From assembly GCA_026874595.1 (NCBI GenBank), contig CM049306.1, forward strand, positions 60,020,019 through 60,084,018: a stretch of DNA of 64,000 bases. Direction: 5' to 3'. Source of the stretch: Sipunculus nudus (Eukaryota > Annelida > Sipuncula > Golfingiida > Sipunculidae). Made by a program: the position numbers and the translations under genes. Within the stretch, counting starts at the first letter, position 1, and every line of letters starts with the position of its first letter. The notes beneath the pieces were generated by a model. The model was not told the origin of the DNA. It saw only the letters and a list, made by a program, of their open reading frames with translations, and did no database searches. Positions 1,400 through 58,110 of this stretch are shown here, piece after piece.

Positions 1400-1513
1400 C
1401 TTGAGCCCTGATTGAGGATTCATGATAAAGTTGCTGCGTACATCATCAAACATTATTGTATTCTTATTATTCCACTGTGGGTACTTTCCCCAAATTACAG
1501 CTAATGGTTTCAC
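1400..1513 (-). CDS. UBLCP1: UBLCP1 coding exon 7 (residues 232-269)
   Basis: 114 nt, phase 0 at both ends. The acceptor TTTTTCAG precedes GTG AAA CCA and the donor is AAG|GTCAGA. It encodes the [14 protein letters not shown] stretch, then KNTIMFDDV with the conserved Lys and the paired Asp of the HAD motif, and ends MNPQSGLK. The next coding exon, expected to begin with an IRPF-like motif, is not in the window. Confidence 0.95.
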
Positions 1514-1669
1514 CTGAAAAACAAAAATAAAATAAAATAAAACAACGAAAACCTAATAATTTGATTTACTGTCAATACACTTAAGTAATTAATCAAAGAA
1601 AAATGGTTGAGATTGTAATGTCAGCTGCAACAGATATTTAGTTCAGCTTCAGAAAATTATTTGGCATTA
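1514..1669. other. UBLCP1 intron 6, unique 3' part
   Basis: Short non-repetitive stretch holding the pyrimidine-rich tract and acceptor of exon 7. It contains an AAAATAAAATAAAATAAA run. This is the only part of intron 6 not made of minisatellite. Confidence 0.6.
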
Positions 1670-4242
1670 ATGACAGAAGACAGCTTACATCAATGAGCAC
1701 ACACTTGGAGGTGTGACACTGATGTCAGAAGAGAGCTTACATCAATGAGCCCATACTAAGAGATGTGACATTGATGATACAAGAGAGCTTCCATCAAGGA
1801 TCACATACTTCAAGGTTGTTACATTGATGATAGAAGAGAGCTTCCATCAAGGATCCCATACTTCGAGGTTGTTACACTGATGAAAGAAGAGAGCTTCCAT
1901 CAAGGTTCCCACACTTGGAGGTGTGACACTGATGTAAGAAGAGAGCTTCCATCAAGGATTGCATACTTCGAGGTTGTTACACTGATGATAGAAGAGAGCT
2001 TCCATAAAGGATCCCATACTTCAAGGTTGTTACACTGATGATAGAAGAGAGCTTACATCAAGGATCCCATACTTCAAGGTTGTTACACTGATGATAGAAG
2101 AGAGCTTCCATAAAGGATCCCATACTTCAAGGTTGTTACATTGATGATAGAAGAGAGCTTACATCAAGGATCCCATACTTCAAGGTTGTTACACTGATGA
2201 TAGAAGAGAGCTTCCATCAAGGATCCCATACTTCAAGGTTGTTACACTGATGATAGAAGAGAGCTTACATCAAGGATTCCATACTTCAAGGTTGTTACAC
2301 TGATGATAGAAGAGAGCTTACATCAAGGATCCCATACTTCAAGGTTGTTACACTGATGATAGAAGAGAGCTTCCATCAAAGATCCCATACTTCGAGGTTG
2401 TTACACTGATGACAGAAGAATGCTTCCATAAAGGATCCCATACTTCGAGGTTGTTACACTGATGATAGAAGAGAGCTTCCATAAAGGATCCCATACTTCA
2501 AGGTTGTTACATTGATGATAGAAGAGAGCTTACATCAAGGATCCCATACTTCAAGGTTGTTACACTGATGATAGAAGAGAGCTTCCATCAAGGATCCCAT
2601 ACTTCAAGGTTGTTACACTGATGATAGAAGAGAGCTTACATCAAGGATTCCATACTTCAAGGTTGTTACACTGATGATAGAAGAGAGCTTACATCAAGGA
2701 TCCCATACTTCAAGGTTGTTACACTGATGATAGAAGAGAGCTTCCATCAAGGATCCCATACTTCAAGGTTGTTACACTGATGATAGAAGAGAGCTTACAT
2801 CAAGGATCCCATACTTCAAGGTTGTTACACTGATGATAGAAGAGAGCTTCCATCAAGGATCCCATACTTGAGGTTGATACACTGATGATAGAAGAAAGCT
2901 TCCATAAAGGATCCCATACTTCAAGGTTGTTACATTGAAGATAGAAGAGAGCTTACATCAAGGATCCCATACTTCAAGGTTGTTACACTGATGATAGAAG
3001 AGAGCTTACATCAAGGATCCCATACTTCAAGGTTGTTACACTGATGATAGAAGAGAGCTTCCATAAAGGATCCCATACTTCAAGGTTGTTACATTGATGA
3101 TAGAAGAGAGCTTACATCAAGGATCCCATACTTCAAGGTTGTTACACTGATGATAGAAGAGAGCTTCCATCAAGGATCCCATACTTCAAGGTTGTTACAC
3201 TGATGATAGAAGAGAGCTTACATCAAGGATTCCATACTTCAAGGTTGTTACACTGATGATAGAAGAGAGCTTACATCAAGGATCCCATACTTCAAGGTTG
3301 TTACACTGATGATAGAAGAGAGCTTCCATCAAAGATCCCATACTTCGAGGTTGTTACACTGATGACAGAAGAATGCTTCCATAAAGGATCCCATACTTCG
3401 AGGTTGTTACACTGATGATAGAAGAGAGCTTCCATAAAGGATCCCATACTTCAAGGTTGTTACATTGATGATAGAAGAGAGCTTACATCAAGGATCCCAT
3501 ACTTCAAGGTTGTTACACTGATGATAGAAGAGAGCTTCCATCAAGGATCCCATACTTCAAGGTTGTTACACTGATGATAGAAGAGAGCTTACATCAAGGA
3601 TTCCATACTTCAAGGTTGTTACACTGATGATAGAAGAGAGCTTACATCAAGGATCCCATACTTCAAGGTTGTTACACTGATGATAGAAGAGAGCTTCCAT
3701 CAAGGATCCCATACTTCAAGGTTGTTACACTGATGATAGAAGAGAGCTTACATCAAGGATCCCATACTTCAAGGTTGTTACACTGATGATAGAAGAGAGC
3801 TTCCATCAAGGATCCCATACTTGAGGTTGATACACTGATGATAGAAGAAAGCTTCCATAAAGGATCCCATACTTCAAGGTTGTTACATTGAAGATAGAAG
3901 AGAGCTTACATCAAGGATCCCATACTTCGAGGTTGTTACACTGATGATAAAAGAGAGCTTCCATCAATGAACATATACTTGGACTTTTTTAGTTGGAGGT
4001 GTGACACAGATGATAGAAGAGAGCTTCCATCAATGAACATATACTTGGACTTTTTTAGTTGGAGGTGTGATACAGATGATAGAAGAGAGCTTACATCAAT
4101 GAGCCCATACTTGGAGGTGTGACATTGATGATAGAAGACAGCTTACTGTCTGAGTCCATCTTGGATGACATTGATGACAGAAGCATTTACATCAATGAGC
4201 CCATCCTTGGTGGTGTGACATTGATGACAGAAAAGAACTTAC
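1670..4242. repeat. 53-bp minisatellite derived from the UBLCP1 exon 6 / 5' splice-site boundary
   Basis: About 47 head-to-tail units of 53 bp fill the intron. The plus-strand unit reads roughly CTTACATCAAGGATCCCATA, then CTTCAAGGTTGTTACACTGA, then TGATAGAAGAGAG. On the gene strand this contains AAGTATGGGMTCMTTGATGTAAG. Exon 6 ends AAGTATGGGCTCATTGAT|GTAAGT, so each unit is a copy of the last ~30 exonic bases and the donor. Units nearest the exon (4080-4242) are most exon-like and still carry the ACACCACCAAG segment upstream. About 22 units keep the donor GT (GATGTAAG); about 25 carry GG instead (GATGGAAG or TATGGAAG). Confidence 0.95.
2045..3950. repeat. Higher-order repeat: two copies of a 953-bp block of 18 minisatellite units
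   Basis: Marker variants recur exactly 953 bp apart. The unit with GACAGAAGAATGC is at 2411 and 3364. The 52-bp unit with CTTGAGGTTGATAC is at about 2867 and 3820. 17 units of 53 plus one of 52 equals 953. The order of TTACATC and TTCCATC units is the same in both blocks, showing a recent block duplication. Confidence 0.85.
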
Positions 4243-4379
4243 ATCAATGAGCCCATACTTGGTGGTGTGCACGGAGATCATGGCCAGGCTGTCCAGCATG
4301 AAGCAGATCTTGTAATTCTGGCTGCTGCTGACACCAAGCTCTTGCATCTTTGCCTCAATCCACTTCATTCTGGTGGCAG
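4243..4379 (-). CDS. UBLCP1: UBLCP1 coding exon 6 (residues 187-231)
   Basis: 137 nt. The acceptor GGTTACAG precedes CT GCC ACC; with the T left over from exon 5 this makes Ser186 of the conserved WSAT motif. It encodes [23 protein letters not shown] and the end KYGLID. The donor is GAT|GTAAGT. This exon end is the source of the adjoining minisatellite. Confidence 0.96.
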
Positions 4380-4651: not shown

Positions 4652-7600
4652 AAACAAGGCCTACAGGCCTAATGCAAACCTGTGCAATGAGATTACACCA
4701 GGTATAATACTTCAATGCTGGACCATTACTTTTCAAGAACATGTGTAACATGTATATGAACAATGCATATACTAAACACTTAGAACAAGAAACAATTAAA
4801 CAAACATCACTGCTGTAATTCTGGCATGGATGCACACAACACAAAAACTAGAATAGTAGTCAACAAGCGACTACATGTATCCTCCAAAATCAGAGTGGGA
4901 CGGGTAAAGTGAGGCATGGATTGAGTGGCAAGGGGAAATAGATTGAGTTTTGTTGCATAATAGCCTGGATGTCTGCAGCTGAAATGTGTTATGGGTTGCG
5001 CCACCTACCACAAAATCCAGAAAGCTGTCCAAAATGTATAAACATGCAAAATTTTAGGCAGGGGGATATGTCAAACCAGTCCTGATATATAAGCTGAATG
5101 TCTGCAGCGTATACATAAATGTAGGTTGGGCCACCTGCCACAAAATCCAGAAAGCTGTCCAAGATGTATAAACCTGCAAAATTTTAGGCAGATATGTCAA
5201 ACCACTGCCGAGATATGAGTGGTTTTATCCCACGGCAAACAAACAGACGGATGCTGTGCAAAAATGATTGCTGGTGGCGCCACCACTTTTGTGTATGATA
5301 AAGAGCTATGTGAGATCTATAAACATGCAAAATTTTTGCCCAATCGGTCATATGGTTCCTGAGATATGAGCTTGGATGTCTGCAGTGTAAATTTGAATGT
5401 AGGTGGCGCCACCTGTCATAAAATCAAGAAAGCTGTCAAGGATGTATAAACCTGCAAAATTTCAGAAGGATAAGTCAAACCACTGCTGAGATATGAGTGA
5501 TTTTATCCAAAGGCAGATGAACAGATGGATGCTGTGAAAAAATGGTTGCAGGTGGCGCCACCAGTTTTGCGTATGATAAAGAGCTATGGGAGATCTATAC
5601 ACATGCCAAATTTTGACCCAACTGGTCAAACGGTTCCCAAGATATGAGCTTGGATGTCTGCAGCTTAAACGTGAATATAGGTGGCGCCAACTGTCATAAA
5701 ATCAAGAAAGTCCAGGATGTATACACATGCAAAATTTCAGATGGATAAGTCAAACCAATGCAGAGATATGAGTGTTTTTATCCCAAGGCAGATGAACAGA
5801 TGGACGCTGTGCAAAAATGGTTGCAGGTGGTGCCACCAATTTTAGTGTATGTTATAAAGCTTTCCAAAAGCTACTTTTGTACAATATCTTTAGCCTTATC
5901 GGTCGAATGGTTTCGAGATATGTGGGTTTATGTGTGGAAACAGACGCACAAATGGACGCTGGGCAGAGAGGAAAGGTCAGAGGTCAACCAAAAATGAGGG
6001 CGCAGCAGTTCACATGTGACTGATCATAATTCCGAATTTAAAAAAATTCTGTCCAGTGGTTATGGAGGAGTTCTCCAGAAACCTATGCAGCGATGGCAGC
6101 AGCATCGGCGTCCGACTGAAAACATAGTATCCGCAAAACTCTGTTTTGGCGGATACAATGATTGTAGCTGGCACCACCAGTCTTATATACAACGAAGAGA
6201 TATATAAATATGCCCAATGTCAGTCTGATATATCAAACCCCTCCTGTGAAATAAGCAGGGACATACACTGTGCAAATATTATTGTAGGTGCCGCCACCAT
6301 TCTTGTACACTAAAAAGCTACCCGATATGTATAAACATGCCCAATTTGAGGCTGATGTATCAAATTCCTCTGTAGAAATAAGCAGGAGCATACACTGCAA
6401 AAGTCAATGTAAGTGGCACCACCTGTCTTGTATATGAGAATACCATCAAAGATGCATAGGTCAAAATCAGTCCAATACATCAAACATTTCCAGAACTTGA
6501 TGCACTGGGCTGACAAGGCTTAGGTGAGTATGGCAGTTGCCCCCCAGTGACCTGTGACAAATTGCTGCCTCAAGCTACTGCACTGAGTGAACTCTTGACC
6601 TGCACCTGGCTAGACTGAATGAACTTTTGACCTGTACTTGGCTGCACTGAGAGAACTCTAGACCTGTTGCATAATCTGACACAGTTGGCAGTCTGCCAAA
6701 GCTATAAATAGATCCAGGCTAAACATTGGTGCCAAATCTAATGCAGTGAGCAATCTGCCAAAGCTATAAATAGAATGCTGCTACTGCACTGAGTGAACTC
6801 TTGACCTATACCTGGCTGCACTTCTTCCAATCCTGGCACTGTGCACAAACTATTTATAGAGCTGACATCATCTTGGCTAATGGCCAACATCAAGGGACTG
6901 GCAATCTGCCAATGGTAAACCAAGTGCTGCCATCTGTACACAAAAGTGGTCCCTACTTGAAATAATTTTGAAATTAATTTTCCCAATACAAAATGCTTTT
7001 CAGCTGAAATCAGGAATATGTGTAAAATTATTACAGATGTATACTGAATGCAAAATTAAAATACAGGTATATCTCATTGATGGCAAATTCTTGAATTAAG
7101 TTGAGTAGGGATACCAATAATTTATAATCCATGTACAGTTTTATAGCCACAGAGAGCTGAATATCTATGATTGTAACATTGCCTGGTATGATGAATAACT
7201 TAAATCAAAAACCTAATTTTTTTAAAAGCTTTTAAAAAAACTTTCTTATCACTATTTTAACCAAAGATAACCTGAAATATAAATGTCTTGTGGCATGATG
7301 TAATAGGTGCTGATAAACTGGTGCCAGACTAGATGTAACAGCATCACACAGCTAACATACATGGTAAAATGACTCAATTCAATCTCCATAATTAAGCCAA
7401 AAATCATTCATGTGGAACCATTAATGACAATTATTTGAAGGATTATTGTAAGGATTATTCTTGTAAAATACTTAACAAACTGGCTTCAGTGGCATAAGTC
7501 GAAAAAAACGTTTCGCAGGTTTATAACTCATATAGGAAGATACAGCAAACTGGCTAAGTTCAGCTTCCCAGAACTCAGCCAAAAAGCACTGAACCAAAAC

Positions 7601-18329: not shown

Positions 18330-20660
18330 ATATGTAAATCATTGAGAAATTTGACACAGAGAGTGATTACAAGAACTAAGAAAAACTTCAATAGAAATGA
18401 GATTCATGAAAACCAGCATACTCCCAAGGCTTTGTGGAAAACTTTGAAAAGTGTGCGAATGCCTGGGAAACTCAAAATGCATATGTACACATTGGCCTCA
18501 AGGATAAAAATGGAGAAATTAATTTTGATTCTAAATTTGTATCTGAAAATTTAATAATTTCTTCTGTAATATTGCTACTACCTCAGTCAAAAAGCTGACA
18601 CTGAGGGTATCTAATGAAGCTTCTTTAGTAAATTTCTATTCTGAAAAGAATGGTGTTACGAATTATTTCAACTTTAATGAAGTTACGGAGTAACATGTAA
18701 AAAAGCTACCGTTGAAGCTTAACACAAACAAAGCAACAGGTAGTGATAATATATCAGCCAGGTTTCTCAAGGATGCTGCATCAATCATTGTATCACCCTT
18801 GACCTACATCTTTAATCTCTCATTAAAACAGTTCCAGATATATTTTAAGTGGCAAAGTTGTCCCACTTTTCAAAAGAGGTGATCGAAATTTTAAAGGTAA
18901 CTACAGACCCGTGTCTATTTTACTGATTGTCTCGAAATTAATAGAAAAGATTGTCTATGACCAACTTTTTGAATATTTAAAGAATAAAGATTTGTTCTAT
19001 GAATTTCAATCAGGGTTAAGGCCAGGTTTTTGGACCGACACAGCGCTTGCATATTTAAGTGATAGAATTAGATTAAACATGGATAGAGGAGAATACACAG
19101 GCATTGTCCTCATTGACTTACAAAAAGCTTTTGATACTGTTGATCATTCTATTCTGGGATTTAAGTTGAAAGCAATTGGTCTTAATGAACAATCTGTTTC
19201 TTGGTTTGAGTCGTATCTCTCAAACAGGAAACAATTTGTTGATTTAGGTAATCATGCAGCAAAATCTTCTTCAGGCAATGTTACTTGTGGGGTTCCTCAG
19301 GGATCAGTTTAAGGCCCTTTTCCTTTTTCTATATTTGCGAATGATATGATACAAGCTACCAAATGTGAACTTTTCCTTTATGCTGATGATTCTGCACTAG
19401 TGGTGAGCAGACCGGATCCAAAGAAAATTGGAAATATGTTGTCAGTAGAATTAGAATCTCTTATTATTGGCAGGAGGAAAATAAGCTCTCTCTTCACCTT
19501 AGGAAAACTGAAAGTATTTTGTTTGCATCCAACCAGAAGCTTAGTAAGTGCAAACAATTATTGGTGAAATGTGATAATGTGGATATTAATACCAAGGAAA
19601 GTGTGAAGTATATAGGGGTCATGGACCAAAACATGTCAGGTACTACTAAGGGTATGTCTATAATTAGTAAAGTTAATGCTAAAATTAGATTTCTTTTTAG
19701 GAAAGGTATGTACATGGGCATCAAAGAAAAGAAAATGTTATGCTCAGCCCTGCTACAGTCAATTTTTGATTATGCCTGTAATTTTTGAAACAGAGGACCC
19801 CATAAGAAGCTTAAGAATAGGTTACACACAGCCCAAAACAAGATTATTCAATACATCTTTAATTATACTCCTTGACAGCAAATAAGAGTTTCAGATTTTA
19901 AAAAATTAAAATGGCTTGATGTCTCACATAGAGTAGACTGTCTAACTCTTAACCTTACCAGAATGTTCAATATTCATCATAATTATGCATCTTCTTACTT
20001 GTGTGATATTGTTCCTGATAGTCATAATTACAGAACTCATAGGTCAAATTTATCATAAAATGTTCCAGAAGTTAAATATCAAGGCAGTAAAACTTTTAAA
20101 TACTGGAGTGTAAAATTGTGGAATGATCTACCAATGGCCATCAAAACAGAAAATAGTAGATATATTTTCAAAAGGAAATGTCACAATTATCTTTTACAAC
20201 AGATGGAACAATACGAAAATTGTGTATACACTGTTTAGATAATTTAAGGAAGGTTTATTGCTGATTTTTTGGTTGATGTGATGGTTCTTAGCTGTTGTGA
20301 TAATACCAGGTGCAGCCGCCGTCTTGTAAACTGTAATCTTAGTATGGTCCACTATGGAAATAAGTCTTTTATTGGGAAGACTTTTCAGTGTTCCATTTTC
20401 AATTGTATTGTTTATAGGTTCAATAGTGCATGGTGCTCAAATGATGTACTGTGATTTTATATATATTTTCTTTTTAGATAGTCTGTGATATGTAATGTGA
20501 TATATACTTTAATTATTTTTTTATTTTTTTTTTATTCAGCATGTACTGTGATATATAAAGTTTCTTTTTTTAATATGTACTGTGATATATTGTATATATT
20601 TTATACTTGTACCGTAAATAATGTAACTAAATAAAAAAATTCATTCATTCATTCATGAAT
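18330..20660 (+). mobile_element. 5'-truncated non-LTR retrotransposon (Jockey/CR1/L2 type), inactivated
   Basis: An open segment at 18345-18550 (RTKKNFNRNEI, PKALWKTLK) matches the linker between endonuclease and reverse transcriptase. The RT runs from about 18900, with SKLIEKIVYDQLFEYL, FQSGLRPGFWTDTALAYL, LIDLQKAFDTVDHS, VSWFESYLSNRKQ and GVPQGS, then the catalytic LYADDS at about 19378. The C-terminal region follows (HRSNLS, LWNDLPMAI) to about 20238. The endonuclease is missing. A stop replaces the residue after GVPQGSV (19310-19312), with further stops and frame changes at about 18555, 19788 and 20056, so it cannot be active. The 3' end is an AATAAAAAAATTC tail with a (TTCA)n microsatellite at 20637-20656, as in CR1/L2-type elements. 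It lies antisense inside UBLCP1 intron 1. Confidence 0.92.
18911..19567 (+). pseudogene. Reverse transcriptase domain of the LINE (degenerate)
   Basis: RT motifs appear in order: the SKLIEKI fingers segment, FDTVDHS (first catalytic Asp), GVPQGS and YADD (paired catalytic Asp). A stop lies directly after GVPQGSV. The YADD block continues in frame after it as FANDMIQATKCELFLYADD. The family assignment comes from motif spacing. Confidence 0.9.
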
Positions 20661-42817: not shown

Positions 42818-45800
42818 AGCAAACCTGTGAGCTTATGCGATAGCGCAGCATTGTCCGTCCGTCGTCAGCCGTCCGCCATCCACTGTCCAGGGCTGGCTTT
42901 CCGCCGTCTCTGAAACTGTCAAGCCAAATTGTCCAATATTTCACAGAAATGATCCCTGGAACAATCTCTTTCAAGAATGGTTCCAGTTCAGAGATTTTTG
43001 GCAGAGTTACAGGAGGTTGAACTTAGTCATCTGTCCAAAAAAGCACACTAAAATTAAAACTTAGAAAGGGCTAGAGCTATAATCACCAAATTTTATACCA
43101 ATGTATGTCACATATGTCATATTTGATTTTGAAGTATTGGTGGCGCCACCTACATTGATGTGTTTTTTACAAGCGAAAATGTAATTTTAAACTCTTCTAG
43201 CTTATACACTGATTTATGATGAAAATGTTAAGCTGATTGGTTTAAACTTTACAAGAATTATTCTATGGTAGTTTTATGCCAGTTTTATAAGAATAGATTG
43301 GGTAAATACAGTTTTAAAAAAGCATTGTAGCCAATTGAAAAAGGCTTTCTGTATTTGAAAACAGATTTGACAATATGCTTAGTTGCAGCAGCCAAGTCAA
43401 GAGGTCACTCAGTACAAACAGGTGGGGTCCAGACATCACCATGGCAACTGACCTGGCTCTGGAACAATGTGTCTAGACATCTAGACACAGCGTCTAGACA
43501 TCTGGACACAATGTTTAGATGCAGAATTCCAAGATTATTGGAACTATATCTTTCAAAGGTTTGAAAAAACTTGGTTTGCATTTTAAGCGAATCGAGTTTA
43601 TCATCAGGTTACATGTGAACTGCTGCACCCTCATTTTTTGTTGACCTCTGACCTTTCCTTGCTGCTCAGCGTCCATTTGTGTGTCTGTTTCCAAACATAA
43701 ACCTGCATATCTCGGGAACCATTTGACCAATCAGGCTAAAAATTTTGCACAAATGTAGCCCTTTGATAGCTTTATAACATACACTAAAAATGGTGGCGCC
43801 ACTTGCAACCATTTATGCACAGCATCCATCTGTTCATCTGCCTTGGCATAAAATCACTCATATCTCAGCAGTGGTTTGACTTATCCACCTGAAATTTTGC
43901 AGGTTTATACATCCTGGACAGGTTTATCAATTTTATGACAGGTGGTGCCACATAAATTCACGTTTACTCTGCAGACATCCAAGCTCATATCTCGGGAACT
44001 GTTTGAGCGATTGAGCCAAAATTTTGCATGTGTATAGATCTGACATAGCTCTTCATCATATACAAAACTGGTGGCTCACCTGCAACTATCTATATATTAA
44101 TAGCGTAAGGCGATTTTTGTAATTTTCCGTATCTCCTCTGATACTACCGTACGGTTTGCCATGATTTCTGACATACATATGCTCAGGGTTTGTCCGAAGA
44201 GATTCCACCCACTTTTATTTGCAATATTTGCGTATTACATGCAAAATTAATAATTTTAATTTATGCTCCCCCGCGGGCGCCTCTTTTCTTTGTGTCTTCG
44301 GGCCTGGTAACACAATGGCCACAGAGTGTTTGATGGCGGGACAGTTTTTCTCCGGGGGCCTTATCCGGGCTTTTCTTAAATTTGCGATGACCGGCCTGAA
44401 ATAATCCCCATTGGTGATCCCTTCTCAAAAGGCAACCTCCGCGCAGCGAAAAGGTCTATTGTGCACAAGGAGATCTCGCGTGAGGAAAATGCTCAAAAGG
44501 GGGTCTTTCAAAGAATGAAAATTTTCTGAGCGGTAGTGAATGCAGAGTAGTGTGTAAAACCCGAACCCCACGGTCCCCGGACCCCATAAACCTATTTCCT
44601 CATTTTCCATTATTATACCGATAAAAACACCACTATTGTTGATGTAAGGACAGAGCAAAGTCCCTAAAAGTCGCACATTTGTAAATGACCGATTCACTGA
44701 AAGATTTATAATTACAAAAATATTTCGATGGAGACGGACCTCATTTACTTTAATTTGCCGACTGTTCAATTTTGACGGACCCCAGTAACCACCGCTCATA
44801 TTTTTATTTATGACTAAAAGAGGACAAAAATAGCACTCATGTCACACACTAAATATAATATTTGTTATTTTAAACGAAAATATAATAGTGCGGACACAGT
44901 GGGGGAGATTTTTGCCACCTGTTACCATTTATGCACAGCTTCCATCTGTTCATCTGCGTTGGGATAAAATCACTAATATCTTAGCAGTGGTTTGACTTAT
45001 CCACCTGAAGTTTTGCAGGTTTATACATCCTGCACAGCTTTCTTGATTTTATGACAGGTGGCACCACCTACATTAAGGTTTACTCTGAAGACATCCAAGC
45101 TCATATCTCAGGAACGTTTGACCGATTGGGCCAAAATTTAGCATGTGTATAGGTCTCACATAGCTCTTCATCATAGGCAAAACTGGTGGTGCCACCTGCC
45201 ACCAATTATGCACAGCAGCCATCTGTTCATGTGCCTTGGGATAAAATCACTCATATCTCAGAAGTGGTTTGACTTATCCACCTGAAATTTTGCAGGTTTA
45301 TACATCCTGGACAGCTTTCTCGATTTTATGACAGGTGGTGCCACCTACATTCACTTTTCCTCTGCAGACATCCAAGCTCATATCTCGGGAACTGTTTGAC
45401 CGATTGGGCCAAAATTTGCTTGTGTATAGATCTCACATAGCTCTTCATCATAGGCAAAACTGGTGGGGCCACCTGCAACCACTTATGAACTCTGTCCATC
45501 TGTTCATCTGCCTTGGGATAAAATCACTCATTTCTCAGCAGTGGTTTGACTTATCCACCTGAAATTTTGCAGGTTTATACATCCTGGACAATTTTCTCGA
45601 TTTTATGACAGGTGGCACCACCTACATTCACGTTTAAGCTGCAGACATCCATGCTAATATGCAACACACCTAACTCTTTTCCCCTTGCCACTTGATCCAT
45701 GCCTCACTTCACCTGTCCCACTCTGATTTCTGCGGATACACATAGTCGCTTGTTGACTACCCATATTCTAGTTTTAAAATGTCCTAGTCTGAAACTTGCA

Positions 45801-45946: not shown

Positions 45947-46202
45947 TTAGATAATATGAACTTTTTTTATTTTACATGGATTGTACAAATAGTAATACCT
46001 AATCACATCACTCTCCAAGGCTCAGATGGTGGCGTTCAGTAGTCTGTAGGGGTTGTAGAAACTTGAGAACCCAGAGAAAACCACCAGACTTGGAAGGGCA
46101 ACTACAACCCACTCTCATAGCCAGGCCATGGATAGAGCCTGAGTTGCCTGCAGAGAGAGAGGAGCATTTTACCCCTCGATTGTCCAGGCCCCAAGCCGAA
46201 TG
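45947..46202. other. HTT intron 6, 3' part
   Basis: Possibly an unclassified repeat remnant (46020-46160: CAGATGGTGGCGTTC ... AACCCAGAGAAAACCACCAG). No gene seen. Confidence 0.4.
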
Positions 46203-46441
46203 ATCAGATGGTGCCGGTCACCCCAAACCTCCCTGTACCTCAGATAATGGGTGTGTTGATTGGTAATATACACTGCATGACGTTCATGTTTTACAGATTT
46301 GATGGTGCCAGTCACCCTAGAACCTGCCTGTACCTCAGATATTGGGTGTGTTGATTGGTAATATACACTGACGTTCATGTATTACAGATCAGATGGTGCC
46401 AGTCACCCCTAACCTGCCTGTACCTCAGATACTGGGTGTGT
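46203..46441 (+). repeat. Three tandem copies of the HTT exon 7 start
   Basis: ATCAGATGGTGCC...CCTGTACCTCAGATA(A/T/C)TGGGTGTGTT occurs at 46203, 46297 (as ATTTGATGGTGCC) and 46388. The first two are followed by GATTGGTAATATACACTG(CATG)ACGTTCATG and a new acceptor; the third continues as real exon 7. The middle copy has an intact TTTTACAG acceptor; the first lacks CAG. Spacing is 94 and 91 bp. Confidence 0.93.
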
Positions 46442-46569
46442 TCCTCTGTCTGCGCATGATGCTGCCTCAGCTGGCCTGCCAGGACCAACAGGAACAAAGC
46501 CTCAAAGGAAGCTTTGGTCAGACCAAACTGGAGCAAGAAACAAACATAGACCCTCAACATTTCATACAG
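46388..46569 (+). CDS. HTT: HTT coding exon 7 (residues 237-297)
   Basis: 182 nt, acceptor GTATTACAG, donor ATACAG|GTACTG. It encodes DQMVPVTPNLPVPQILGVFL then CLRMMLPQLA and QSLKGSFGQTKLEQE. The middle decoy copy upstream would, if spliced in the same phase, run into a TAA after about 21 codons. Confidence 0.95.
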
Positions 46570-47136: not shown

Positions 47137-48165
47137 ATGGAGAACCCCTCTTATTGTTCCACTTGTGGTTCCATAATCCCTGCCTGGGACTCCCACCCTT
47201 CTTGTCACTTGTGCCGTTCTAAGAACAACACTTGCCGTGGACCGGCCGACCCTTGTTTTTATTGTCAAACTTGGTCCTCGGATAAGTGGGCCATGTTCAA
47301 TGCTTGGTCCCACTCCCCAGTTCTTGGGGTTTCTCCTTCCACAGTTCCTCTGTCAGGTGCCCCTACAAGTCCAGGGGGGGGGGGGGGGTATCCTACCTTA
47401 GGTGACTGCAATCTGTTCCTCCGTGTAGAGTAACTACTCCTTTTGTTTCTACTACAAAATCATTATTATCTATTTCATGTAAACAGAAGACTTCGCCTGT
47501 GCCCTCAACTGATCAGTCGAGACCGTCTTCCGCTTATGATATCTTAAGCAAACTGTCCAAGTTTTGTTCTTCCTTAATGTCAGATCTAGACGATTCGTCT
47601 AGATCCTTTTCCCATGTTCCGGTGGTCTCCCCGGCTCCCCTGGTTCTCTCTCCTATGCCGTTGTCCTCCCTCCGTCACCACGTCAGCTTAATTCCCAGAC
47701 TCCTGCTGTTCCTATTGTTGTTCTCCACCTGGATGAGGTACGTATTCCTGGCTCTGTTTCCCGCCCTCCATCTGCTTCCTTTCGGCTTTCCCTGCTGTCC
47801 CTGTTCCCAGCCGCCTGTCCCTTTCTTTCTTCCAGCCTCCTCCGGTTGCAGTTCCTCAGGTGGTTCCTGCCTCTGGACGGCCGTCCCCTTCTTTATTACA
47901 GCCTTCTCCTGTGCCTGTTGATCAGGTTTCTTTGGCTCCAGATTCACGGGGTTCTCCGGCCTCTTCAGCTTCTGTTTCAGCTATGTCCACCCCGCTGGTC
48001 TGTATGGAGTTTTCGGAAAGAATGGTGGCACTGTTGCAGGAACATCATGCAGTGGTCACCGGCTCCATTTCCACATCTACTGGTGCATCAGTCCCTCCAG
48101 GTCTTGGTCCACTGGCACCCTTTGGACCCCTCGTGACTACCCGACGTACTGTTTTGACCGTTTAA
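47137..48165 (+). pseudogene. DIRS gag-like region (frameshifted)
   Basis: The first frame opens MENPSYCSTCG and carries paired Cys motifs (YCSTCG, CHLC, CFYC) like other DIRS gag starts. It breaks near a G-tract at 47378-47388. Later pieces at 47499-47920 and 47860-48165 are in other frames and are Ser/Pro-rich. Its product would be the particle protein; it is not intact. Confidence 0.7.
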
Positions 48166-48804
48166 TTCCTTCACCAGCCCTGCGGGCTGTGCCTTCCTCT
48201 CCTATGTGCCTTGAATCCTGCGTAGACCAACCCTTTGCGGATGGCAAATCCCTCTATTCTCCGTCAGCTCACGTGTCTCATCACAAACTTGCTGATATGG
48301 AAGGGTTGGGCCGTCAGGCGGAAAGGATTATAAATGAAGATTATAAAGGTGGTCACCAGTCTCCTCACCTTATCTCCAGATGCTGCTAATCAAAACGATA
48401 TATGTCAGGCCTCTGCACATTATTTGGCGCTTAGTTGAGCATTGTATTCTCCTTCACCCTTCTGCCTGTTTAAAATCTTTACCATCTCTCAAACCTGAAC
48501 TAACACAGGCTGAGTTGTCCGAACTGAATACTCAACCCTTTACTGGATCCCTGCCTTTTTGGTGGTCATCTGCGGCCGCTATTCGAGTGTGCATTAGAAC
48601 TTCTGATTGGCAGGGCTGACTCCGTTCGGCGCCACCTGCCTCTCGACAGTCCCTCCATATTCCTCGGAATCGCCCACCCCCTTCCGCCCAATCTGTTCCT
48701 CGTGAGGCGCCTGCTCCTGCTTCCCAGGCGTCCTCCTGTTCAAGCCGTTCCCAATCTTTTCGAGGCAAAACCACTAAATGAGGTCATCCCATAAAATGAC
48801 TCTT
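48166..48804 (+). pseudogene. DIRS gag 3' region / spacer
   Basis: Fragmented frames (LADMEGLGRQAERIINEDY at 48285 is the longest recognisable piece). Assigned to gag by position only. Confidence 0.45.
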
Positions 48805-49475
48805 TAGTTCCGGTTGGTGCTTGCCTAAACGCTCATTTTCCTGCTTGGGCAGATATCACATCGCACCGTTTAATTCTAAGCATGGTTTGTACGCACTCCA
48901 CCTCTCACGCTGCACCCGTTTTTCACTCCGCCTCCTCCGGATTCAATCAAACGGCTCCCTTTAGAAGAAGCCATCCAGTCGATGTTAGAAAAATGGGCTA
49001 TTCTCGACGTTCCCCCTTCAAATCCAGGGTTTTACTCTCATCTCTTTTTGGTTCCAAAACCACACTGAAAGTGGCATCCCATAATAGATCTCAAGCAGCT
49101 AAATTCGTTCATTACCCAGCCTCCTTTTTTCGGAAGTTCAGTATTCATGCGGTCCTCCGCATTATCCACTGGCTGGATTGGGCGTTCAAAAATCGACCTC
49201 ACGGATGCATAATTTCATGTGCCAATCCATCCGTCGTCACAACTGTTTCTTTTATTCGCCTACGAGAACCCCATTTTTCAATTCCGTGCTCTTCCATTTG
49301 GAATCAATGTGGCCCCATGGATTTTTACAATGATAGTCCACACAGTCACGACTCACCTCCTCTCGCGGGGCATCTCGGTTCTCCCATATCTCGACGATTG
49401 GCTTGTCCATGCTGCTGATCGCTCTCTCTTACTACACCACAGGACCCAGGTTCCCTCTTTGTGACAGAACCTTGG
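48805..49475 (+). pseudogene. DIRS reverse transcriptase (interrupted)
   Basis: Opens with VPVGACLNAHFPAW, a conserved DIRS pre-RT motif. Then LEEAIQSMLEKWAI, FLVPKPH and IIDLKQLN lead to the palm, and LPYLDDWL at about 49380 is the catalytic box. Breaks seen: TGA at 49066-49068, a frame change near 49185 and TAA at 49210-49212. Confidence 0.9.
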
Positions 49476-49699
49476 GTTTCTTGTCAATGTAGCTTCTCTG
49501 CACGGTGTTCTCAATTGGGTGGCTACTTTCATTCCTTTCGGTCTTCTCTATCTCTGTCCTGTTCAGTCCCTCTTTCGAGATTGGGGCCTTCTCAGCGTGC
49601 GTCAGTTCAACCTGCAGTCCTTCCGTTTTACCTCAGCTGGAAGATTCTTTGTCCCCTGCTTGATCTTCCATTACTCTTTCAGGGCATACCTTTCTCTCA

Positions 49700-50070
49700 G
49701 GAGATCAATTGCATGATCTTCACGGACGCATCTCTCCTCGGTTGGGGTGCCCATATGGCAGATCTCAGGGCCTCAGGTGTTTGGTCCCCCTCAGAATGGC
49801 TACTTCACATCAATGTGCTAGAACTCTGCGCAGTCCGTCATGCGAAGGCCCATTGGTCCCGCCACTTGCTAGGCCATCATATCCTCATCATGACAGACAA
49901 CACAACAGTAGTGGCGTATATCAACAAGCTGGGTGGTACTCGGTCTCCCTCACTTCTTTGGGAGACCTACCTTTTGTTTGATCGTTGTATGACTTTTAGG
50001 GCCTTGCTCCGTGTGTGTCATCTTCCGGGTGTCTCGAACAGTCTTGCCGACACCCCCTCCCATTATCCCG
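49700..50070 (+). pseudogene. DIRS RNase H domain
   Basis: Contains CMIFTDASLLGWGAHM (first catalytic Asp), LHINVLELCAVRHA (Glu) and ILIMTDNTTVVAYIN (second Asp), then LLRVCHLPGVSNSLAD. Spacing and motifs match the RNase H of DIRS elements. The frame is open from 49461 to 50597 but disconnected from the RT by the upstream breaks. Confidence 0.9.
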
Positions 50071-50545
50071 TCTCTCCACCTCCGACAGTTATACTTCCCC
50101 TCACTGTCCTTCTGTGTCTTTTCTCTCGCCTTGGGTGCCTGGAAATCAATCTGTTTGATTTACCGTCCCCTCCAGCCCTCGTTCCTTCTGTGACACGGCT
50201 ACGTCACCCTCGCGACCAACTCCCAGACACCCCGGCGTCGGTCTGGTCACACAGGATTCTTTACGGGTTTCCAGTGCACAGTCTCATCCGACGGATCCTC
50301 CTACTCCTGTCCCGTACTGTTCAGACTAATCTCCTCCTCATCCTTCCGTTTCAACCAACCGCTCCCTGGTTTCCCCTGTGGAGCTCATTTCTGTCCCGGC
50401 TGCTGCTTCTTCTGCTGCTCCTGATCAATCTCCCGTTGTTCCCCCAATCATGTCGTCAGTTTCGGTCGTACCCTCTATGTGCATACGTACTATCATCAGA
50501 CACCTCTAAGATCAAGGCCTTTCAAGCCCAGCTGCTCTCCTTGCC

Positions 50546-51597
50546 TTGGCTTCATGTCAAAGTTCTTCGGACCGCATCTATGACTCCTGGTGGCTAATCT
50601 TCTCCCGATGGGCGGATGACCATGGTATCTCTCCTTTAGATCAGTCGATTTTGGCGGTTTTGGATTTCTTCATTTATTTACTTCAGATCAAACACTTATC
50701 CTATCCGTCTCTCTGTGGTTATCATGCCGCCCTTTTGTTGGTCCTCTGTCAGCTTGGTCACAATAGTGTCCTACACCATCCGCTGGTGACAGATTTTCTC
50801 AAAGGGATGCATGCACGCTCCTCTCATCCTCCCTACATATCTCCTTCCTGGCACCTTGGTGTTGTTTTATTACATCTCCGGGACCCCCTTATGAGCCTCT
50901 TTGTTCAGCTCATCTTCTCCATTTGTCTCGGAAAATGGTTTTCCTCCTTGCTCTTGCATCTGTCGGTCACCGCTCTGAGCTTCATGCCTTAGTGGCCGAT
51001 CCGAAATGCACTCAAATTGCGGCCATCGGTTCTTCAGCCACTTTACATTTTCCTCCTGACTTCTATAAGAAGAACCAAAATTTTGATGATCCTTCGGTGC
51101 CTTGGCATGTGCCAGCACTTCCTAAAGGCCAGTACTGGTTTGGGGCCACTAATTGCCCGGTATGTGCGTTATGTTATTATCTTAAAGCTACCAGTTCTAT
51201 TCTGGGGGGCACAAGAAGTTGTTTATTTAATAAAAAATCACTACTTCTCAAAAAGAAATTAGCCCTATCACCATCAGTGCATGTCTCAAAGCTACCATCG
51301 TGTCTGCGTAAGAATCTGCATCACCTTCAAGTCACAGCTCATGAAGTCCGGGCAATCTCTACCTCCTTCGCCTATTTATCTGGGATTTCACCCAACCAAC
51401 TTGTTAAGAAGGGTTTTTGGAAATCTCCATCCACCTTTACACAGTTTTATCTGCGAGATGTCAAACTGCAAGACTGGGGCCTTTACGCCTTGGGACCTGT
51501 TGTCTATGTGGGTGAAGTCATCGCCTTCTCCAGGTCGTCTACCCAGTCCTCTTCAGTTCCTGTGACTATATCTCCCCCACCATCTTTGCTCCAGTGA
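50546..51597 (+). pseudogene. DIRS tyrosine recombinase
   Basis: The recombinase N-terminal helices (LDFFIYLLQIKHLSYPSLCG, HHPLVTDFLKGMHA) are in the first frame, with a frame change near 50900. The catalytic part follows: ALASVGHRSELHAL (first Arg), VTAHEVRAISTSFAYLSG (H-x-x-R) and FTQFYLRDV (candidate Tyr). This enzyme would integrate the circular intermediate without target duplication. The catalytic residues appear present in the second frame (50923-51597). Confidence 0.9.
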
Positions 51598-51667
51598 TAG
51601 TTCTTCTTGTTCCCGCTGATTGTAGGTTGGTATCGCCTCCCCAAGGTTTATCTGCATTATTCTTATA

Positions 51668-56929: not shown

Positions 56930-58110
56930 ACTAAATGTATCCGCCAAAACAAAGTTTTGCGGATCCTGTGTTTATGACTGGGTTCTGCTGCCGCTGCCCC
57001 ATTCATTTCCAGAGAAATCTTAGACCACTGGACTGTTTTTTCGAAACTTGACACCATTATGGGGTCATATATGAACTTGTGCCTAAACATTTTACGTTGA
57101 CCTCTGACCTTTCCTGTCTGCTTTGCATCCATCTGTGCGTCTGTTTCCACACATTCACCCACATATCTTCAGACTTGTTTGACCAATAAGGCTGAAATTT
57201 TGCACAGGTGTAGCTCTTGGATAGCTTTATATCATTCAAAATACCTGGGCCACATGCAACCATATTTGCACAGCTTCCATCTGTTCATCTGCCTTTGGTT
57301 AAAATCACTCATATCTCTGCAGTGGTTGGCCTTATCCAACTTAAATTTTGCATGTGTATACATCTAGGATAGCTTTCTTTATTTTATGACAGGTGGCACC
57401 ACCTACATTTATTTACAGTTCAGACTTCCATGGCTAATATCTCAGGACTGGTTAGAGGTATTGGCCTGAAATTTGCATGTGTATAGATCTCGCATAGCTC
57501 TTTATCAGACACAAAACTGTGGGCGCCACCTGCAACTATTTTTTCACAGCGTCCATCTGTTCATCTGCCATGGGATAACATTACTCATTTCTGGTCAGTG
57601 GTTAGATTTTTCTGCCTTAAACTTTGCATGTGTATACATCTTGGATAGATTTCTAGATTTTCTGGCAGGTGGCCCCACCTACATTCAAGTTTAATGTAAT
57701 ATCTCAGGACTTGTTTGACATATCAGCCTGAAATTGTATATGAGTATGGATCTTACATAGCTCTACAGCTAATACAAATTTTGTGGCCAAGCTTACAACC
57801 ATTTTTGCATGGTGTCCATCCGTTCATCTGCCTCGGGTAAAATTCACTCATATCTCAGCAGTGGATTGACCCATCCACCTGAAATTTTGCATATGTATAC
57901 ATTTTGGATAACTTTCTCTTTCAAATAAGAGGTGGCTCCACCTACAGTCATGTTAAAGTAGCATACATCCTTGCTAATATGCCACATCTCACTCTATTTC
58001 CCCTGACCACTCAATCCATACCTCACTCCATCTGCCCCACTTAGCGGATACACATAATCGCTTGTCAACTACCTGTATTCCAGTATAGTCTGGTTGCTTA
58101 AGTGATGAAA
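56930..58110 (+). repeat. Family B core fragment in HTT intron 12
   Basis: Carries ~265-275-bp units with 'tgcaacca/t..tttgcacagc' at 57258, 57533 and 57796 and GGTGGC(A/C)CCACC variants at 57391, 57666 and 57935. Neither terminus is retained. Confidence 0.8.

Follow-up and report, generated by a model that had tools for sequence, protein, structure and literature searches.

Background

Tandem repeats built on a splice junction, which can disturb splicing, are already known from a few human genes and, as far as the available text of the reports goes, the VNTRs of ABCA7 and CBS are the close precedents. The VNTR in intron 18 of human ABCA7 starts with the donor of exon 18, whose GT makes up the first two bases of the repeat; splicing at a cryptic donor one unit downstream leads to retention of a single 25-bp unit and a PTC, and alleles range from ~12 to 427 units, the longer ones showing lower expression and exon 19 skipping while unit retention is unchanged (PMC5954066). 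The 31-bp VNTR of human CBS, c.1444_1467+7, comprises by its notation 24 exonic and 7 intronic bases (PMC2630376); it is present in 16-21 copies and, according to a review, more units are accompanied by lower CBS activity (PMC5188458). In human duplicated genes, 27 intron modifications by variable exon-intron boundary repeats have been put down to minisatellite expansion; these repeats have on average 30-bp units in four copies, and the majority have alternative-transcript support (PMC2812944).

Other intronic repeats are less closely comparable. The 38-bp VNTR of TERT intron 6 can affect splicing once its copies exceed a threshold (PMC3948165), and neither the intronic minisatellites of Caenorhabditis elegans (PMC4039745) nor the intron repeats of earthworm metallothionein (PMC12783039) are described as a copied splice junction in the available text of those reports. 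A literature search by title and abstract openings, from which subscription journals were mostly missing, returned no mollusc precedent.

We hereby describe a minisatellite in intron 6 of UBLCP1, a phosphatase gene, in Sipunculus nudus, within a window that is the whole stretch of 64,000 nucleotides analysed; all array figures refer to one assembly. A sequence-only reading had proposed that the junction between exon 6 and its 5' splice site was amplified in tandem, and had suggested that the result could compete for U1 snRNP, change splicing efficiency or differ in length from one individual to another. The explanation that we consider probable is that of a junction-derived minisatellite which arose by tandem duplication, acquired point changes that spread in blocks, and is mainly a passenger with a minor leak to decay-prone messages.

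Results

UBLCP1 exon 6 and intron 6

Coding exon 6 of UBLCP1 (4243..4379, minus strand) is 137 nt long with an open frame, and its limits, read directly, agree with the exon start at 4379 given by the sequence-only reading. It ends in ...AAGTATGGGCTCATTGAT, followed by the donor GTAAGT, whose +1 base is 4242 on the minus strand. Intron 6 (1514..4242, minus strand) measures 2,729 nt and terminates with the acceptor TTTTTGTTTTTCAG, after which exon 7 (1400..1513, minus strand) extends from GTGAAACCATTAGC... to CTCAAG|GTCAGA, as placed by reading the sequence and by the match to Drosophila UBLCP1. The number 6 of exon and intron follows the sequence-only reading and a count by eye in which exon 2 was not located.

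All 83 residues translated from exons 6 and 7 together align with Drosophila UBLCP1 (3shq; E 1.7e-32), and the same translation matches TIGR02245 (HAD-IIID family) with an E value of 5.1e-37, at a score under the family's whole-protein cut-off, as expected of a query made of two exons. Because the 3shq match takes in the residues encoded by the exonic part of the repeat, the coding origin of that part can be regarded as secure at the level of sequence. A genome search with TIGR02245 gave five exon-level matches, all at this place, and thus one locus for UBLCP1. Reverse-transcriptase-like frames of retroelements were also noticed by eye in the list of open reading frames at 18827-19788 (plus strand), apparently inside an intron of UBLCP1.

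An array built from the exon 6/intron 6 junction

The founder junction segment (4217..4268, minus strand) is 52 nt long and consists of 26 exonic nt, which are the last 26 nt of exon 6, and 26 intronic nt including GTAAG, with the donor GAT|GTAAGT and its +1 at 4242; the unit is thus composed as the sequence-only reading had described it, of an exon end, GTAAG and intronic bases. It is followed by a tandem array of 48 junction copies (1670..4216, minus strand), delimited by TRF and by a scan, whose far end at 1670 is also the one first proposed. The array occupies 2,547 of the 2,729 intron nt (93%), and the intron without the copies would be ~180 nt long. TRF reports a 53-bp unit in 43.5 copies with 93% matches at 1670-3967, and further rows of period 66 (3929-4115) and period 52 (4059-4269). 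The scan with the 38-nt junction gave 52 local maxima, three of which (1554, 1414 and 1367) were dropped, lying outside the array with 18-21 of 38 matches; the remaining 49 junction-like units are the true one and its 48 copies, mostly 52-53 bp long, with 66- and 44-bp variants close to the exon. The first copy begins after 26 intronic nt that are themselves bases of the founder unit, so the array directly adjoins the exon and the repeat unit includes the authentic 5' splice site of exon 6 (the founder being unit 0).

Local alignment of the 52-nt junction with the interior consensus scores 29, a value reached by none of 3,000 dinucleotide shuffles (mean 7.1, SD 1.4, maximum 14). For the 26 exon bases by themselves the score is 14, and again none of 3,000 shuffles, with a maximum of 11, reaches this. 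Taken with the conservation of the coding part as far as Drosophila, the 49 units and these alignments demonstrate, as a statement about sequence, that the intron 6 array is made of tandem copies of the exon 6/intron 6 junction, and the proposal of a junction amplified in tandem stands.

Three other arrays in the window, with units of ~263-278 bp and a similar consensus (5080-5851, 44913-45660 and 57257-57954), apparently belong, as judged by eye, to one dispersed family.

Differences between copies and apparent recent growth

The donor position reads GT in 23 of the 48 copies and GG, through a T>G change at +2, in the other 25; a raw count of 24 GT includes the true donor. Twenty-one of the GT copies carry GAT|GTAAGC, one carries GAT|GTAAAT and one ACA|GTAAGC. 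The array therefore holds ~23 candidate decoy donors and not the "about 47 decoy 5' splice sites" first announced for it. Positions +1, +3 and +4 are unchanged in all 48 copies and +5 is kept in 47, which leaves +2 as the single position between +1 and +5 where more than one copy has changed, while -9, -6, +6, +10, +15 and +22 are altered in most copies (38-47 of 48).

Measured against the founder, identity is 0.79, 0.73 and 0.87 for copies one to three, 0.71-0.79 for the 43 that follow, and 0.85 for both copies at the far end. The statement that likeness to the exon is greatest beside it is accordingly not borne out, since the far end of the array holds exon-like units too, and this speaks against a simple gradient; founder-like units at both ends are the usual picture of interior homogenisation.

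At a larger scale, a block of 969 bp (2960..3928, minus strand) recurs at a shift of 953 bp (2007..2975, minus strand) with 0 mismatches in 969, and a 303-bp stretch recurs exactly at shifts of 371 and 582. Because the 969-bp block recurs without a mismatch, the latest expansion of the array appears to be recent, unless the assembly is wrong; the same exact duplication, seen in one assembly, makes copy-number variation between individuals likely. The proviso leads to the reading that the array is real and its length wrong, the perfect second block having arisen when the assembly duplicated it or merged two alleles. Tandem arrays are a usual site of assembly error, and the identity over 969 bp holds although adjacent units differ at several positions. 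Nevertheless, a recent unequal exchange would give the same picture, the smaller exact blocks suggest several real rounds of copying, and the assembly is in long contigs (C1, for example, is 110.9 Mb), so we take a wrong length to be unlikely. Moreover, removing the second block leaves 30 copies, 14 of them with GT, and the derivation of the array from the junction holds either way.

Candidate decoy donors and acceptor-like signals

Donors were scored with a human matrix and their pairing was computed with a human/vertebrate U1 end, either of which may not fit Sipunculus nudus. By this human matrix the true site scores 3.23 and the common decoy GAT|GTAAGC 2.47, the other two GT copies scoring -1.33 and 1.29. 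Four other UBLCP1 donors score 1.66, 2.61, 3.09 and 7.68, which places the common decoy within the range of working sites. Among 3,376 minus-strand GT sites, 1.8% reach the score of the true donor and 4.0% that of the decoy; sites at or above the decoy score number 21 in the 2.5-kb array (8.2 per kb) versus 1.9 per kb elsewhere in the window. The computed U1 pairing is -5.1 kcal/mol for the true donor, -4.3 for the common decoy and -3.1 for the GG copies. Another GT within the unit, GAA|GTATGG, is present at 36 sites and is weak (score 0.2).

The array sequence makes use of decoys possible, and such use would add a premature stop: the extension to the first decoy (52 nt) ends in an in-frame TGA, and all longer extensions contain the same stop. 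Our script registered a stop for 22 of the 23 decoys, the exception being the first one, whose TGA (index 185) just missed the cut-off.

The units also carry acceptor-like signals, judged by motif and pyrimidine count. CATCAA of the founder has become CATCAG, by A>G at +22, in 35 of 48 units, where it follows a pyrimidine-rich stretch; without gaps, +22 is G in 38 of 48 units, 35 times as AG and three times as TG. Thirty-six YAG sites of the intron are preceded by at least 11 pyrimidines in 17 positions. Nineteen YAG-GT pairs lie 30-31 nt apart in intron 6, 18 of them with a stop by the script's criterion, and 80 CATCAG-GT pairs are spaced by 20-250 nt (137 nt in 14 cases, 84 nt in 13); 79 of these 80 pairs would give a stop if included (within the stretch examined). 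No AG|GT ratchet site, of the kind used in recursive splicing, was seen by eye in the units.

These pairs are what would be expected if the array acted as a cluster of decoy exons, in which splicing factors gather on non-productive pseudoexons and intron 6 is held back, as regulated intron retention with a strength set by copy number. The pyrimidine-rich stretch and CATCAG of most units are followed by the donor of the next unit 31 nt on, and the pairs at both spacings mostly contain stops. However, 31 nt is short for exon definition, the founder has no AG and the A>G change could be due to chance, 25 of the 48 donors are dead, and selection is not apparent, as recently copied blocks contain a mixture of GT with GG units. 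In favour of this reading, decoy exons of OGT and other genes promote intron retention and are rarely spliced in, according to the available text of that report (PMC12017769). On balance, a function of this kind for the array is unlikely.

The huntingtin neighbour and a survey of exon edges

Exons of huntingtin (HTT) are found at 36500-64000 on the plus strand and UBLCP1 is on the minus strand, so the two genes are divergent neighbours. A huntingtin exon, homologous to huntingtin residues 300-363, starts at 46388 after TTACAG, and its start is held in a three-copy repeat of ~95 bp (46202-46257, 46297-46352 and 46387-46442, plus strand). The first 55 bases of this exon recur in the first repeat copy, with a block match of 93%, and the TTACAG acceptor is also present in copies two and three; an acceptor edge has thus undergone the same kind of event. 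Reverse-transcriptase-like frames were seen in this gene as well, at 47400-51600 (plus strand), apparently inside an intron, by eye from the same list.

A survey of exon edges, with a threshold of a same-strand copy within 5 kb at E 1e-3 and with little flank on one side near the ends of the stretches, found a local copy for 2 of 49 exon matches, both in the UBLCP1/HTT stretch (2 of 17, versus 0 of 32 in TCP-1 family genes). The HTT sample was made of four of the five matches of one search, five of the 14 of another (two of them weak, E 0.15 and 0.98) and one further exon; the UBLCP1 sample comprised seven exons with hand-set limits, exons 1 and 3 being taken by eye from the translation and exons 2 and 9 not located. 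The TCP-1 sample held 32 of 63 matches, the other 31, some of them on loci L002-L031, being left out. Two cases in 49 are too few to claim an enrichment, and exon-edge repeats as a general feature were set aside. Nine open GroEL-like genes of 547 aa with equal score were met in the assembly on contigs C61, C62, C66, C72, C73, C75, C89 and C99 (L002-L010); these nine loci are probably bacterial DNA, from a symbiont or a contamination.

A more far-reaching proposal joins these elements: intron 6, rebuilt from its own 5' junction, would be an array of decoy micro-exons, tunable by copy number, through which the UBLCP1 message level is set, and amplification of exon edges would perhaps be a recurrent route of intron growth in this genome, represented by the UBLCP1 donor and the huntingtin acceptor. 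We consider this proposal unlikely and offer it as speculation.

Hairpins and the loss of donors

A perfect 8-bp inverted repeat, CATTGATG/CATCAATG, spans the true donor of the founder (4250-4218, minus strand). Its hairpin has a z score of -5.3 in a 33-nt stretch, chosen after the hairpin had been seen, and of -2.9 in a 47-nt stretch. The window contains 90 inverted repeats of this kind (loop 4-20), or 1.4 per kb, and for this reason we give the founder hairpin no weight as a cause of the amplification. The commonest type of interior unit gains a complete 9-bp hairpin through T>G at +2 (-9.3 versus -3.5 kcal/mol). Mean accessibility over 9 nt is 0.017 for the true donor, 0.029 for GT copies and 0.001 for GG copies (regional mean 0.045); the idea that hairpins hide the decoys was dropped, as the true donor is no more accessible than the GT decoys.

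The +2 change could also be adaptive, units that carry it having been favoured because intact decoys harm UBLCP1 expression. The restriction of variation within +1 to +5 to this one position, split 25 to 23, would agree with such selection, as would the hairpin completed by the same change. On the other hand, one mutation and block copying suffice to produce the pattern, 38-44 of 48 copies depart from the founder at -9, -6, +15 and +22 as well, and 23 donors are intact (14 of 30 after removal of the duplicated block). Selection against donors is supported neither by the variation of positions nor by the mixing of GT and GG, and we regard it as highly improbable.

Distribution of the repeat in the genome

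A query of 2,611 bases found one place in the 1.43-Gb assembly, and a 121-base junction query gave five pieces, all at the intron 6 locus. A 27-base core, allowing at most three mismatches, occurs at 47 sites in the genome, all 47 in the array or the exon and all on the minus strand, and the reversed control of this core occurs at none. No copies of the junction repeat were found elsewhere in the assembly by the DNA queries and the 27-base pattern, in counts that are lower bounds since these searches skip very common words. The sequence-only reading had been wary of two outcomes, a dispersed satellite and a lack of similarity between unit and exon end; the unit was found in the genome searches only in intron 6, and its likeness to the exon end lies beyond all 3,000 shuffles. 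The alternative of an unrelated dispersed satellite, inserted in the intron and similar to the exon through coincidence, has next to no probability, at the sensitivity of these searches, since nothing was found in its favour and the repeat occurs nowhere else, its similarity to the exon is reached by no shuffle and its coding part is conserved in Drosophila.

Discussion

Probable origin and possible effect of the array

The junction-derived minisatellite would have started with a tandem duplication, towards the intron, of the 52-nt segment across the exon 6/intron 6 boundary, and repeated unequal exchange or replication slippage may then have extended the array to nearly all of intron 6. The point changes, which are seen directly, presumably began in single units and spread by block amplification; among them, +2 T>G should kill the donor, +6 T>C should weaken U1 pairing, and +22 A>G creates a putative acceptor AG.

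By analogy with ABCA7 and CBS, the array is probably mainly a passenger, and the true donor would win over the copies because it stands behind a real exon and has the better base at +6. Occasional use of a downstream GT would lead to a stop codon and, on the same analogy, to nonsense-mediated decay; longer alleles may thus cost a little expression, as the decoy extension would end the message by decay. Two points weigh on the other side. The margin of the true donor over the decoys is small, and 21 decoys together could outcompete it, which counts against a passenger; and the unchanged unit retention over ABCA7 VNTR lengths, in the available text of the report (PMC5954066), would speak against a cost that grows with length.

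As a passenger or not, the UBLCP1 array is a natural experiment on donor choice, with ~23 near-copies of a donor within 2.6 kb and with interspersed dead GG copies as matched internal controls. If array length varies, decoy donors would be available in graded dose in a gene for which one locus was found. The array also shows how copies of its own splice junction could bring an intron from ~180 nt to 2.7 kb.

Comparison with known systems

RNA pairing is the reported mode of action of the TERT repeat, which lies more than 1 kb away from exon-intron junctions (PMC3948165); this sets it apart from an array adjoining its exon. Paired 3' and 5' splice-site-like sequences, the mark of a decoy exon, are present by motif inside intron 6, and the OGT type resembles the array in being an intronic pseudoexon that has splice sites of both kinds, 3' and 5', and contains a stop; it is however one exon of 143-153 nt (PMC12017769), whereas in UBLCP1 the spacing is 31 nt, in an array whose putative splice sites are recognised by sequence.

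ABCA7 is similar in that a tandem repeat begins at the exon's own donor and a stop results from the downstream donor. It differs in its unit, 25 bp long and C-rich, which flanks the exon and for which coding bases are not described in the available text; its length variation and expression effects have been measured (PMC5954066), and the UBLCP1 array is known from the sequence of one assembly. Human boundary repeats affect duplicated genes with ~4 units (PMC2812944), compared with 48 copies at the single locus found for UBLCP1. The CBS VNTR, as described in the available text, shares with UBLCP1 a unit that combines exon and intron bases, its unit being shorter and its copies fewer (PMC2630376, PMC5188458).
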